From Sialis fuliginosa (Eukaryota; Arthropoda; Insecta; Megaloptera; Sialidae), in NCBI GenBank assembly GCA_961205875.1, contig OY540811.1, positions 33,945,340-34,009,339 on the forward strand: a stretch of DNA of 64,000 nucleotides. The letters run 5' to 3'. Shown here piece after piece: positions 32,868-41,051 of the stretch. A model generated the notes under the pieces. It did no database searches and had not been told where the DNA came from. It saw only the letters and a program-made list of their open reading frames with translations. The position numbers and the translations under genes are program-made. Each line of letters starts with the position of its first letter. The first letter of the stretch is position 1.

Positions 32868-32955
32868 ATACAATAGTAGTGACGTTAAATATAAATAAAA
32901 ACAAACTTGTTTGTTTAAACGTCAAAAATTTATTTAAGAAAAAGTAATCGCAAGC

Positions 32956-32980
32956 TTTCGATTCACAGAATCATCGTCAG
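32956..32980 (-). ncRNA. Hammerhead-ribozyme-like core, left arm
   Basis: On the minus strand: CTGACGA, T, then GATTC-TGT-GAATC (perfect 5-bp stem), then GAAA. This follows the conserved hammerhead order CUGANGA, stem II, GAAA, but with one extra T before the stem. It is the mirror copy of 33462-33486. Confidence 0.4.
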
Positions 32981-33461
32981 ACTAAAATATAATAAATAAC
33001 AATTAATATAATGCAAAATATTGATATTTTAAAATAAAAATTCAGAAATATACATACATATTAATAAAGATTCAATAATATTCATGTGACTACGGAAATG
33101 TTTGAAAAAATAACAAATCTCTTAGTAACTCAAATAGTTACTAAGGAACGAAAAAATTGATTTAAAAAATTAATGACAGAAATAATTAATTAATTATTTA
33201 AAATTGTGTTGTAAATAGTAGATAATGTGGATATGTCAGTTTTCTTGTTAATTGTATTATTGTTTCTTTTTATGTGTAACATTTCGGAAATGTAACGTTT
33301 AGCTTTATGTTTTTCATTATCTAAAATTTTAGTTTGTTTATAATCAAAAATATTGAGATAACAACATCGTTCTCAAATTTAAATCTTTATTAATTTCTTA
33401 ATTTTTATTTTAAAATATCAATATTTTGCATTATATTAATTGTTATTTATTATATTTTAGC

Positions 33462-33486
33462 CTGACGATGATTCTGTGAATCGAAA
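33462..33486 (+). ncRNA. Hammerhead-ribozyme-like core, right arm
   Basis: CTGACGA (33462-33468), T, stem GATTC/GAATC with loop TGT, then GAAA (33483-33486), followed by GCTTGCGATTAC. The full fold (stems I and III and the cleavage site) was not established by eye. Minimal hammerheads with short stem III are documented in Penelope-like elements, which supports the element call; activity is not claimed. Confidence 0.45.
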
Positions 33487-33564
33487 GCTTGCGATTACTT
33501 TTTCTTAAATAAATTTTTGACGTTTAAACAAACAAGCTTGTTTTTATTTTTAATTTATGTCATA

Positions 33565-36500
33565 CTAGCTGCTACCCGCGACTTCGCTCGCGTGGATTTC
33601 GAAACCCTTCATATGTGACAGGGGGTAAAATATTAAATTTATCTTATTTTTAGTTTTCTTTAATTATACAAAATCGTAAATGTGTCGGCTCCTATGCGAG
33701 ATAGAGGGGTTTTTCCGCCCTAAAACCCCCACCCCCGTGGTATTTTTCCCGCTGGATCGAATAAAACCACTTACAACCCTTCATATGTAACGGGTAAAAT
33801 ATTAATTACTAAAAAAAATTTAAAATTTTCCTCCCCCTTGCAATTCCTTAGGGGTTGAATTTTCGAGATATGAAATAGCCTTAATCCGTCCTTGGGATGT
33901 AAGCCATCTCACTGCCAAATTTCATCAAAATCGGTAAAGCAGTTTAGTCGTGAACAGGTAACAAATAGACAGACTGAGAGATACACTTTCGCATTTATAA
34001 TATAAGTCGCGACTCCTATGTAAGATAAGGGGTTGTTTTGTCCCCCTAATAATCCCTCTTCCGTAGTATTTTTGCCCGCCAGATCGAATGTAATCAATTA
34101 CAACTCTTCATATGTGACAGGGGGTAAAATATTAAATTTTTCTTATTTTTAGTTTTCTTTCATTATACAAAATCGTAAATATCTCGGCTCCTATGCGAGA
34201 TAGAGGGTTGTTTTGCCCCCTAAAACCTACGCCCCCGTGGTATTTTTCCCGCCGGATCGAATAAAACCACTTACAACCCTTCATATGTATCGGGGGGTAA
34301 AATAATAATTACTAAAAAAAATTAAAAAATTTCTACCCCCTTGCAATTTCTTAGGGGTTGAATTTTTAAGATACGAAATAGCCTATGTCCGTCCTCGGGA
34401 TGCAAGCTATCTCACTGCCAAATTTCATCAAAATCGGTAAAGCGGTTTAGCCGTGAAAAGGTAACAAACAGAAAACAGACAGACAAACACACTTTCGCAT
34501 TTATAATATTAGTATGGATATCGTAAAATGTCCAAATATTACTTTACTTAATATTTTATTAACTAATTAAAATTTGAACAATAAAACTTAAATTTTTCGA
34601 AAAATTGTTCATTCGAAGAATTTTGATTTGAAAAATTGTGATTCGAAAAATTGTGTTTCGAAAAATTTACACCAAACCTAATAATTAATTTCGATATTTT
34701 ACCTTTCATAGAAGTGAAATGTTTCTTCATATTTAAATTTTCAATCAATATAGGCATTTCAAAATATTTAATTGTTAATATGTGTCAAAAATCATTTAAT
34801 TGTTCGACAAAATATTTTAAAGAGACATAATCATAGTAACCTAAATTAATAAAATAAAATATTGAAACCGTAAATTATAAAATTCCGTATTCCATGGCTA
34901 GGTACTATGTTTTTATATACCTAAATTATAACATACCTGGTTAAATTATTTCTATATCGTCCCCTCCAAGGCAAAGTATCGTAAGATACACTTTTTGCGA
35001 AATTGAGTTATCGATTCTAAAAATCTCATATATAAGCGACAAAATTCTCTTTTCCGCTAAAAAATCTGTTAAAACTTTTATCGTATTCCTCCAGACAATG
35101 CATTCTAAGCACCGATATCTGTTTTATGAAATATCGTAACCAACAATAATATAGTATCGTAACCAGTGACGTAGCTAGCCCTGAGTGGATCCTGACTGGC
35201 CTATATGGTAGGTACTTTCCCGCGACGGAATAATATAGTGCTGTGACGGAGTGCTTTCTTATTTATTCATTAGAGCTGGGTTTTTATCAATTTTAATTTT
35301 ATTAATTTTAAGATATTTTAGAAAAATCGTACCTGTTAAAACTTTATTGCACAAACTAAATATGGTTTCTCTATGAGGTTTTTTCAATATATTTTTTACC
35401 CTCAATAACTCAATTTGGTTGATATTGAAGTATGATGTAGAACAGTGCTTCCTAAACTTTTCCTACGACAGAACACTTCACAAATCCTGAAATTTTAATG
35501 GAACGTCTTGGTTATTTTGTAAGTAATATATAAAATAAGGAAAAAAGTAAATTTAAATCAGTCAAGCATGTTTGAACTTCTCGCAGCATTTAAAAACATT
35601 GAATATTAACTTTGATATTTTTTACGCTTAAACTGATAAGACATACGTTATATATCGTAGTACAGGTATTCCTCGACTTACAACCGAGATAGGTTTCTAA
35701 ACATCGATCGTAAATAGAATAAGTTGTAAGTTAACACGTACAATATGTACATATTTTTGCTTTGGACGTTTTCCTTGATGTGAAGCGAATCGCATTTTCT
35801 ATACATAACAAACAGTTGCGGGTTCCCAAAAATATCTACATAAATAATAATAAATTACATTTTTGGGAAATTCCCGGAACTGTTTGTTTCATTTATGTAA
35901 TATGTGCATGTAAGAAAGAGACAAAGACAATTATAAGTCGAGGATTACCTGTATATTTGTTTACGATGCGTTTTCAACTCTTGTCGTATGAAAATATATT
36001 GCATACTAAATACATATTATGACATTTGTTTCTGATATGACAACGACAAAAAATTATTTTATGACTTCTGGTACATGTATTGTATTACATCATGTACTTA
36101 CATGATTTGAACATTTTATGAATATTAAAAATAATTTCATTTTTGGTTTTTCTGCTCGTGTCTTTCAAAAATTCATCAATGTGTCTATATAAATACATTA
36201 TTAGCTCTTGTAGATACTCGTACACCCTTTGTACAATTAATTAATTAATTACAATCAAATATAGGTCTTGTCAATTGAATGAAGCTTTCGTAACAATTTG
36301 CAATAAATCAACATCTTGTTTTAATTTTGTAAATGTACATTTTAGGTTAGTACATTGGGTAAAGATGACAGATATACAGTTTCAAACAACAATTAAAATA
36401 ATATCATTTAAAATTACAATGTTAATTTGAAATTATATAAATTCTTCTGATATTTATGATTACAAATAAATATAATAAAATACCTATACCTATGAAAGTA

Positions 36501-37300
36501 AAAATATTGATAATTCAATGACTTAAGATTAAAAAAATGTCATTATATACTTAATTTTTATTTGTACCGGGAACACATATCTATCGCCGAATGTTGGTCG
36601 AATTGTGTCCGAATGCTGTAATTGTTTGTCTTCAATTTTTTTGTCAAATTTATTTATGAAAATTTTAATTATATATTACATTAGAGTTGTGCATATTTTT
36701 TCATTCGTTATGTTCTTTATATTTCTTTTTTGTTATATTTTATTGTTCACTTCAAAATTTTAAATGGCCACTGACATTTAAATTTTTTTTAAATAATCAA
36801 TAAAATATAATGTATCCATAGTTACGACATTTGCAATTAATTTAGTAAATGCTTAAAGCGCATTATATGTAAACGTATTTTGTTTATTTTCTCCTCTTTA
36901 ACATATCTTTTTCAAAAATCAGACACGGGTTTATGGTTGTCAATTAACCAAAGTATTTGAAAAAAATTAAAAAAATCTAATATCGGTTTTCGTTTTGATA
37001 CTTTTTTACATCAAAACTTTTTTTTTCCTTTTTTTTTCTTTTTTTTTAAATCTGAAATTTGAACCTTACATTATATCGCCCAAGGAATATAAAAAAAATA
37101 ATAAAAAAATTCTAACTTTTTTTTTGAAAAATTGGGGGCCCCTTGTTACCCCATTTATAAACTTTTTCAAAAAAGGCCCACTAGTTGTTATTTTTTACCC
37201 CCAAGGAATATATATACCAAATTTCAAAGTTCTCCGATGAGTGGAAATGGTCAAAAAAATGATTATCAGTCAGTCAGGGCACTTCGTTATATATAGTAGA
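33565..37300 (-). mobile_element. Helitron, unit 1 of a head-to-tail pair (3,736 bp)
   Basis: On the minus strand the unit begins TCTACTATATATAACGAAGT and ends CGCGAGCGAAGTCGCGGGTA followed by GCAGCTAG. That gives the 5' TC start, a near-terminal hairpin (CGCGA/TCGCG) about 10 bases from the end, and the 3' CTAG of a Helitron. The 3' CTAG is followed by T of the host. The 5' end abuts unit 2 with no spacer. No Rep/helicase frame exists; the unit is non-autonomous. Its 3' portion holds two to three copies of a ~420-bp module (33597-34515), and a TA-flanked MITE sits at 35663-35951. Confidence 0.88.
35663..35951. mobile_element. 289-bp TA-flanked MITE nested in Helitron unit 1
   Basis: TA then CAGGTATTCCTCGACTTACA at the left and ATTATAAGTCGAGGATTACC, TG, TA at the right form inverted ends, like pogo/Tigger-related MITEs. 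The insertion predates Helitron duplication because unit 2 has it at the same place. Confidence 0.8.
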
Positions 37301-40300
37301 CTAGCTGCTACCCGCGACTTCGCTCGCGTGGATTTCGAAACCCTTCATATGTGACAGGGGGTAAAATATTAAATTTATCTTATTTTTAGTTTTCTTTAAT
37401 TATACAAAATCGTAAATGTGTCGGCTCCTATGCGAGATAGAGGGGTTTTTCCGCCCTAAAACTCCCACCCCCGTGGTATTTTTCCCGCTGGATCGAATAA
37501 AACCACTTACAACCCTTCATATGTAACGGGGGGTAAAATAATAATTACTAAAAAAAATTAAAAATTTTCCTCTCCCTTGCAATTCCTTAGGGGTTGAATT
37601 TTCGAGATACGAAATAGCCTTAATCCGTCCTCGGGATGTAAGCCATCTCACTGCCAAATTTCATCAAAATCGGTAAAGCAGTTTAGTCGTGAACAGGTAA
37701 CAAATAGACAGACTGAGAGATACACTTTCGCATTTATAATATAAGTCGCGACTCCTATGTAAGATAAGGGGTTGTTTTGTCCCCCTAATAATCCCTCTTC
37801 CGTAGTATTTTTGCCCGCCAGATCGAATGTAATCAATTACAACTCTTCATATGTGACAGGGGGTAAAATATTAAATTTTTCTTATTTTTAGTTTTCTTTC
37901 ATTATACAAAATCGTAAATATCTCGGCTCCTATGCGAGATAGAGGGTTGTTTTGCCCCCTAAAACCTACGCCCCCGTGGTATTTTTCCCGCCGGATCGAA
38001 TAAAACCACTTACAACCCTTCATATATATGTATCGGGGGGTAAAATAATAATTACTAAAAAAAATTAAAAAATTTCCACCCCCTTGCAATTTCTTAGGGG
38101 TTGAATTTTTAAGATACGAAATAGCCTATGTCCGTCCTCGGGATGCAAGCTATCTCACTGCCAAATTTCATCAAAATCGGTAAAGCGGTTTTCACGGCTA
38201 GAAAAGGTAACAAACAGAAAACAGACAGACAAACACACTTTCGCATTTATAATATTAGTATGGATATCGTAAAATGTCCAAATATTACTTTACTTAATAT
38301 TTTATTAACTAATTAAAATTTGAACAATAAAACTTAAATTTTTCGAAAAATTGTTCATTCGAAGAATTTTGATTTGAAAAATTGTGATTCGAAAAATTGT
38401 GTTTCGAAAAATTTACACCAAACCTAATAATTAATTTCGATATTTTACCTTTCATAGAAGTGAAATGTTTCTTCATATTTAAATTTTCAATCAATATAGG
38501 CATTTCAAAATATTTAATTGTTAATATGTGTCAAAAATCATTTAATTGTTCGACAAAATATTTTAAAGAGACATAATCATAGTAACCTAAATTAATAAAA
38601 TAAAATATTGAAACCGTAAATTATAAAATTCCGTATTCCATGGCTAGGTACTATGTTTTTATATACCTAAATTATAACATACCTGGTTAAATTATTTCTA
38701 TATCGTCCCCTCCAAGGCAAAGTATCGTAAGATACACTTTTTGCGAAATTGAGTTATCGATTCTAAAAATCTCATATATAAGCGACAAAATTCTCTTTTC
38801 CGCTAAAAAATCTGTTAAAACTTTTATCGTATTCCTCCAGACAATGTATTCTAAGCACCGATATCTGTTTATGAAATATCGTAACCAACAATAATATAGT
38901 ATCGTAACCAGTGACGTAGCTAGCCCTGAGTGGATCCTGACTGGCCTATATGGTAGGTACTTTCCCGCGACGGAATAATATAGTGCTGTGACGGAGTGCT
39001 TTCTTATTTATTCATTAGAGCTGGGCTTTTATCAATTTTAATTTTATTAATTTTAAGATATTTTAGAAAAATCGTACCTGTTAAAACTTTATTGCACAAA
39101 CTAAATATGGTTTCTCTATGAGGTTTTTTCAATATATTTTTTACCCTCAATAACTCAATTTGGTTGATATTGAAGTATGATGTAGAACAGTGCTTCCTAA
39201 ACTTTTCCTACGACAGAACACTTCACAAATCCTGAAATTTTAATGGAACGTCTTGGTTATTTTGTAAGTAATATATAAAATAAGGAAAAAAGTAAATTTA
39301 AATCAGTCAAGCATGTTTGAACTTCTCGCAGCATTTAAAAACATTGAATATTAACTTTGATATTTTTTACGCTTAAACTGATAAGACATACGTTATATAT
39401 CGTAGTACAGGTATTCCTCGACTTACAACCGAGATAGGTTTCTAAACATCGATCGTAAATAGAATAAGTTGTAAGTTAACACGTACAATATGTACATATT
39501 TTTGCTTTGGACGTTTTCCTTGATGTGAAGCGAATCGCATTTTCTATACATAACAAACAGTTGCGGGTTCCCAAAAATATCTACATAAATAATAATAAAT
39601 TACATTTTTGGGAAATTCCCGGAACTGTTTGTTTCATTTATGTAATATGTGCATGTAAGAAAGAGACAAAGACAATTATAAGTCGAGGATTACCTGTATA
39701 TTTGTTTACGATGCGTTTTCAACTCTTGTCGTATGAAAATATATTGCATACTAAATACTAATACATATTATGACATTTGTTTCTGATATGACAACGACAA
39801 AAAATTATTTTATGACTTCTGGTACATGTATTGTATTACATCATGTACTTACATGATTTGAACATTTTATGAATATTAAAAATAATTTCATTTTTGGTTT
39901 TTCTGCTCGTGTCTTTCAAAAATTCATCAATGTGTCTATATAAATACATTATTAGCTCTTGTAGATACTCGTACACCCTTTGTACAATTAATTAATTAAT
40001 TACAATCAAATATAGGTCTTGTCAATTGAATGAAGCTTTCGTAACAATTTGCAATAAATCAACATCTTGTTTTAATTTTGTAAATGTACATTTTAGGTTA
40101 AAGATGACAGATATACATTTTCAAACAACAATTAAAATAATATCATTTAAAATTACAATGTTAATTTGAAATTATATAAATTCTTCTGATATTTATGATT
40201 ACAAATAAATATAATAAAATACCTATAACTATGAAAGTAAAAATATTGATAATTCAATGACTTTAGATTTAAAAAATGTCATTATATACCTACTTAATTT

Positions 40301-41051
40301 TTATTTGTACCGGGAACACATATCTATCGCCGAATGTTGGTCGAATTGTGTCCGAATGCTGTAATTGTTTGTCTTCAATTTTTTTGTCAAATTTATTTAT
40401 GAAAATTTAAATTATTTATTACATTAGAGTTGTGCATATTTTTTCGTTCGTTATGTTCTTTATATTTCTTTTTTGTTATATTTTATTGTTCACTTCAAAA
40501 TTTTAAATGGCCACTGACATTTAAAATTTTTAAAAATAATCAATAAAATATAATGTATCCATAGTTACGACATTTGCAATTAATTTAGTAAATGCTTAAA
40601 GCGCATTATATGTAAACGTATTTTGTTTATTTTCTCCTCTTTAACATATCTTTTTCAAAAATCAGACACGGGTTCATGGTTGCCAATTAACCAAAGTATT
40701 TGAAAAAAATTAAAAAAATCTAATATCGGTTTTCGTTTTGATACTTTTTTACATCAAAACTTTTTTTTTCCTTTTTTTTTCATTTTTTTTAAATCTGAAA
40801 TTTGAACCTTACATTATATCACCCAAGGAATATAAAAAAAATAATAAAAAAATTCTAACTTTTTTTTTGAAAATTTGGGGGCCCCTTGTTACCCCATTTA
40901 TAAACTTTTTCAAAAAAGGCCCACTAGTTGTTATTTTTTACCCCCAAGGAATGTATATACCAAATTTCAAGTTTCTCCGATGAGTGGAAATGGTCAAAAA
41001 AATGATTATCAGTGAGTGAGTGAGTGAGGACACTTCGTTATATATAGTAGA
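37301..41051 (-). mobile_element. Helitron, unit 2 of a head-to-tail pair (3,751 bp)
   Basis: It has the same start (TCTACTATATATAACG on the minus strand from 41051) and the same hairpin-CTAG end as unit 1. The CTAG end joins the TC start of unit 1 directly at 37301/37300. On the outer side the host base is A (minus strand AATGAA then TC), so the pair as a whole sits between A and T, the Helitron target. Differences from unit 1 are few: a 12-bp gap near 40098, a short local inversion near 38190, and GTGA-repeat expansion near 41012. The units are therefore young and independent enough not to be a simple assembly echo. Confidence 0.88.
39408..39696. mobile_element. 289-bp TA-flanked MITE nested in Helitron unit 2
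   Basis: Identical in position and length to the copy at 35663-35951, with the same CAGGTATTCCTCGACTTACA end. Confidence 0.8.

Follow-up and report, generated by a model that had tools for sequence, protein, structure and literature searches.

Head-to-tail Helitrons in a Sialis fuliginosa genome and the resident 5' edge as a candidate insertion hotspot

How do two Helitrons come to lie exactly head to tail? The question is raised by the window analysed here (the whole stretch of 64,000 nucleotides from Sialis fuliginosa), in which positions 33565-41051 hold two non-autonomous Helitrons in this arrangement, both on the minus strand. Head-to-tail Helitron junctions have been cited in support of rolling-circle transposition (PMC5876387). 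Those of the bat Myotis lucifugus were read as tandem repeats (Pritham and Feschotte 2007, cited in PMC2267711), with the argument, given in the same citing paper, that an independent insertion would leave an A between the units. In maize, one pair of unlike Helitrons with a perfect CTAG/TC junction has been described, and consecutive insertion into the A-T formed by the host A and the element T is one of the two routes proposed for it (Du 2008, PMC2267711). Related cases come from fungi: in Fusarium, a self-insertion placed one FoHeli element 2 bp upstream of the partial 5' end of another; for the Metarhizium triple, either repeated 5'-end insertion or a rolling circle has been proposed (PMC5148889). 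Helraiser, a reconstructed bat Helitron, produces circles with joined ends (PMC4778049, PMC5876387); its transposase can cleave and join the ends precisely (PMC5876387) and its retransposition shows no clustering round the donor sites (PMC4778049). These accounts are given as far as the excerpts of the cited papers go.

Structure of the window pair

On the minus strand the pair reads ...AACAATGAA/TCTACTATATATAACGAAGTG...GCAGCTAG/TCTACTATATATAACGAAGTG...GCAGCTAG/TATGACATAAA, where the slashes mark the element boundaries (Table 1). CTAG abuts TC with zero bases between them, and the host A and T are found at the outer edges only; the exact head-to-tail arrangement claimed in the initial annotation is therefore correct to the base. 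Alignment of the 3' unit (u1) with the 5' unit (u2) gives 3689 matches, 34 mismatches and 8 gap runs. The longest open reading frame listed in the region has 86 amino acids, so both units are considered non-autonomous.

Table 1. Positions of the Helitron pair and its parts in the window
Feature	Position	Strand	Length or basis
u1, 3' unit, non-autonomous Helitron	33565-37300	-	3736 bp
u2, 5' unit, non-autonomous Helitron of a sub-lineage different from u1	37301-41051	-	3751 bp
Flanking host base at the 3' side of the pair: A on +, T on -	33564	.	
Flanking host base at the 5' side of the pair: T on +, A on -	41052	.	
Putative subterminal hairpin of u1, upstream of CTAG (33565-33568)	33575-33595	-	fold prediction
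5' terminus of u1, TCTACTATATATAACGAAGTG; edge abutted by the second element	37280-37300	-	
CTAG/TC junction, 35-bp search pattern	37288-37322	-	genome search
Stretch of u2 with the micro-inversion marker, absent from u1	38185-38229	-	
Outer 5' terminus of the pair	41031-41051	-	

The Helitron identity of the units, their termini and their AT target, which had also been proposed, are supported. TC...CTAG termini, corresponding to the canonical 5' TC and 3' CTRR of Helitrons, are present in u1, in u2 and in copies throughout the genome. The canonical insertion between A and T without target duplication is seen at the outer edges of the pair, at the 3' side of all 40 insertions sampled and at the joined flanks of one array. 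The described portions of the Helraiser system share the TC/CTAG ends, the AT target and an AT-rich flank that is strongest on the 3' side (PMC4778049, PMC5876387). For the 3' hairpin of u1, a statistically weak stem of 7 bp is predicted at the expected place, roughly 10 bases from the 3' end (-5.7 kcal/mol, z -0.65), and 44 of 200 shuffled sequences fold as well. The termini of the window units presumably resemble those of moth and butterfly Helitrons.

Two minor features accompany the pair. To the left of the pair, at window positions 32880-33562, lies an inverted repeat (186-nt arms, 92% complementary) that stops 2 bases short of the Helitron edge and has the look of an independent inverted-repeat element. 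Towards its 3' end, each unit has an internal duplication (window 33603-33728 and 34102-34227, with a spacing of about 500 bp). Beside that of u1, at about 34514 on the minus strand, a TC sequence is found which, by its resemblance, we take to be possibly an old internal Helitron 5' end.

Origin of the units and recurrence of the junction

At 29 of the 34 substitutions between u1 and u2 both states are present in other copies of the genome, and private substitutions are few (three in u1 only and two in u2 only), so that both units look recent and yet of different sources. According to a genome search with up to 3 mismatches, the micro-inversion of u2 occurs in u2 and three other copies only; beyond the 3' end of these three, the 5' end of this family is absent in every case, and at L099, one of the three, the 5' edge is itself abutted by a CTAG end of another kind. 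Among the copies compared at full length the nearest to u2 is L100, on another contig, with 10 mismatches and 4 gaps, as against the 34 mismatches that separate u2 from its neighbour u1. The first 1001 bp of u1 have 14 other full-score matches in the genome. Judging from these comparisons, u1 and u2 already differed before they were joined. The distribution of the micro-inversion and the substitution states contradict a tandem dimer made by rolling circle from a single source as the origin of the window pair. That the pair was inserted as a unit, as originally stated, was an interpretation that finds no support, the u1 and u2 lineages occurring separately elsewhere. What is found at this locus is what characterises a consecutive-insertion pair of the type of Du 2008: unlike origin, nothing between the units, and A and T outside only.

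The junction was searched for in the 392-Mb, 20-contig genome, represented by a single assembly. The 35-bp pattern gave 57 matches with up to 3 mismatches (37 exact ones, the window junction among them, and 5, 2 and 13 with one, two and three mismatches, respectively), and the reversed pattern used as a control gave 0 matches in the same genome. Since 42 matches with at most one mismatch stand against none in the control, the junction is neither due to chance nor specific to this locus. These 42 sit at 36 places, six of which hold two junctions 3.2-3.7 kb apart. The outer flanks of the junction loci, sampled on nine left and eight right sides, differ by eye, the right flank of L128 being 8.2 kb from its junction, so that it may belong elsewhere. 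The 5' terminus followed by T has 518 matches with up to one mismatch (the first 100 listed are all exact), a count that partly includes junctions because the permitted mismatch may fall on the T; the 3' terminus with its leading A has 816 matches with up to three mismatches. Thus the junction, for which the initial annotation had proposed a genome-wide search, recurs in the genome, and the ends of single copies elsewhere coincide with the TC and CTAG ends that it had named. Besides, 51 edges of this 5' end are followed by CTAG (up to 1 mismatch), 39 of them already in the junction list and 12 others. This means that roughly a tenth of the copies of this 5' end are abutted, at the exact edge, by a further CTAG end (51 places versus 518 matches, the latter partly including the 51).

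The partners were compared at 30 junctions, the window's included, over 1.5 kb per side. The search pattern requires the right unit to have the 3' end of this family, whose excess on the right is therefore a matter of selection. At 13 junctions the 3' partner belongs to this family (at least 1.4 kb at 96% or better; L026 is rearranged). At 12 it is clearly unlike, the alignment either not exceeding about 90% identity or covering fewer than 190 bases (L010-L013, L015, L016, L019, L022, L031, L033-L035). The other 5 are intermediate, with 620-785 bases in common at 96-99% before they depart (L009, L017, L024, L029 and L036); in L024 at least, the departure is only an interruption by an insertion, and the family sequence resumes in L052. 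On the left sides of L029 and L036 the partners contain two 5'-end regions, separated by about 620-630 bases, which recall the multiple 5' termini of Fusarium Helitrons. In 8 of the 12 unlike junctions the 5' unit is of this family (96.5-99.9%; L010, L012, L015, L016, L019, L022, L031 and L033) and the 3' units are recognisably related but different elements. The unlike pair L016 sits at one A-T site, and its joined flanks form an uninterrupted sequence in u1. A Helitron on the left side of L013, which has only 13 bases in common with the 5' end, is putative.

Pairs within the family were compared with 50 sampled copies, two further pairs being dropped because the 3' end of L103 and L104 was not found. 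In 7 of the 10 testable pairs, including the window pair, other copies are closer than the partner; in 3 the partner is unsurpassed among the 50 (one tied), and all of these lie in arrays of at least three units. Near-identical neighbouring units occur in three arrays (L020/L021, L026/L027 and L106/L107, L106 and L107 being near-identical over 0.7 kb on each side), which could reflect true local amplification. The window junction and, as far as partner structure can tell, at least eight more cannot stem from one copied source, and therefore a junction of this kind alone is no evidence for circles or read-through. A perfect CTAG/TC junction, which the initial annotation took for a direct record of a joined-end intermediate, is accordingly no such record by itself, as many such junctions join unlike elements.

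Proposed sequential insertion at the 5' edge and its alternatives

The window pair most probably results from two separate Helitron insertions, in which the newcomer entered between the A and the T of the resident's 5' edge. A resident Helitron has the host A next to its own TC, so that its 5' edge is itself an A-T dinucleotide; a second Helitron entering there in the same orientation would give A-[TC...CTAG][TC...CTAG]-T, with zero extra bases. We infer that the RepHel transposase may recognise and nick the resident 5' end, its normal initiation site, and that the incoming strand with its free CTAG 3' end would be joined at this nick and not at an ordinary AT site. The newcomer would thereby come to lie 5' of the resident, equally oriented and directly abutting it, the 5' unit being the presumed later arrival. 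In this genome the resident 5' edge appears to be a strong, orientation-specific hotspot for several Helitron types.

As to orientation, the genome search for head-to-head joins gave no real case, the lone match (3 mismatches) fitting the family end on one side only. Such joins would be equally expected if orientation were free, and the instability of long palindromes could account for part of their absence. As to position, no insertion was found elsewhere within 30 bases after ATGATTAT, compared with 4 at the edge, in a search (exact motif plus 30-base gap) that misses most edges and served for other-position insertions only. As to the target, the 40 sampled 3' ends outside known junctions (the first 40 on one contig) all have a host A alongside on the + display, and positions -12 to -7 of their flanks are almost all A or T; among these 40, L083 and L084 are at a second 5'-end type and L087 is near an edge. 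A flank model built from 38 of these sites, leaving out L084 (duplicate flank) and L087 (near-edge), predicts for an assumed 560 edges a share of 2.4e-6 of insertions, whereas 13 of the first 100 exact 3' ends listed, one of them L013, are at such junctions. The model gives this edge a score of 0.62, towards the bottom of the range of the sampled sites. Chance or a plain AT-rich preference was accordingly rejected as the cause of the junctions.

Among the alternatives, the one that survives best differs in order only: two insertions, with the newcomer at the resident's 3' edge, between G and T. It would yield an identical junction and was left open for maize in the part of that study concerned with the pair (Du 2008, PMC2267711), and the comparison of ages is uninformative, with 27 private substitutions in the 3' units versus 24 in the 5' units of 14 within-family pairs (Wilcoxon p 0.78). 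This order is nevertheless unlikely, since the base at the 3' side was the normal one in all 40 sampled insertions and Helraiser, in the data quoted from PMC4778049, missed AT in 46 of 1,751 insertions, most prominently at TT, AC and AA. In addition, the nearest relatives of the 3' partner of the unlike pair L015 are at 97%, while other copies match its 5' unit at 100% over 1001 bp, and the 3' partner thus looks older than the 5' unit.

The initial annotation had favoured a dimer formed by read-through or rolling circle, the product of two rounds of copying of one source or joined-end circle, inserted in a single event. The joined-end circles of Helraiser (PMC4778049, PMC5876387), tandem arrays elsewhere that have been so interpreted (PMC4067079, in the part cited) and the near-identical neighbours in the three arrays mentioned above speak for it; it is contradicted by the different lineages of u1 and u2, each present elsewhere, and by the many junctions of unlike elements, and we regard it as quite improbable for the window pair. 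Equally improbable is a composite that arose at another locus by sequential insertion and was later transposed whole, with read-through past its inner CTAG: Helitrons are known to skip their 3' terminus ('end-bypass'), as PMC5148889 mentions, but none of the three further u2-lineage copies that the marker revealed is joined to a u1 unit. Integration of a joined-end circle into a resident copy by homologous recombination would also give a perfect junction between elements that have their 5' region in common, but it is very improbable, as both junction sides should then agree with the circle for a variable distance, the last kilobase of the 3' partner is unlike at several loci (85-89%, e.g. L010, L016, L019, L022, L031 and L033), and differing 3' types at one edge do not fit.

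Beyond the single pair, we consider it fairly plausible that sequential insertion at the 5' edge has a general form: Helitron 5' ends would be a shared, oriented docking site, the transposase steering several types to the initiation site of residents and stacking them 5'-ward. If true, this site would be a safe landing place for the elements and a seed of tandem arrays. The contribution beyond the known cases lies in number, unlike partners, specificity and orientation, and a measurable targeting rule for resident 5' edges is indicated. The maize report, in the part consulted, has one case (PMC2267711), whereas here 42 junctions of one kind and other types are accompanied by controls. The junction geometry is like that of Myotis lucifugus, as cited in the maize report, but the two partners in the window do not derive from a single source. 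The excerpts of the Helraiser papers (PMC4778049, PMC5876387) make no mention of insertion directed at resident 5' ends, and the Fusarium and Metarhizium cases concern isolated non-canonical Helitrons, inexact or undecided in the passages of PMC5148889. In the literature searched, as far as the excerpts extend, no statement was found that describes resident 5' ends as an insertion hotspot.

Other end types and putative autonomous partners

The 12 further edges of this 5' end (11 newly read, and L099) carry 3' ends of other types than that of this family: six CTAGCGCGCTGG, three CTAGCTGGGCCC, two CTAGGGGCTTTG and one CTAGTATCG, the last (L127) being a candidate Helitron end only. Allowing up to 3 mismatches, the CTAGCGCGCTGG type is found 77 times in the genome, the six at this 5' edge included. 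A presumed second 5'-end type, TCTATATATATAAAAATGAATG, forms 8 exact junctions with CTAGC, two of which have duplicated flanks in common, and one with CTAGG; these nine junctions carry 3' ends of four types.

Related to these edges, the 3' end of this family lies in L087 (C1:31028782-31028866) 3 bases beyond a 5' end, TAGTAGAAGA/CTAG, which is possibly a variant edge. The 3' ends L083 and L084 (C1:29865072 and 29868003) are 2.9 kb apart with an identical 60-base flank, which suggests a tandem duplication taking in neighbouring sequence.

A genome profile search with the model of the RepHel N-terminal domain (PF14214) gave 30 matches. At three RepHel loci the same 5' terminus followed by T is found on the + display, with a CTAG 3' end of another type, unlike that of the window units, 15.3-15.7 kb away (lengths worked out by hand from the ends). 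These loci may be autonomous partners that have the 5' end in common. In the same genome (G000), four RepHel matches at C3:36036353-36050669 are arranged in two mirror-image pairs whose scores are identical, which may point to an inverted duplication.
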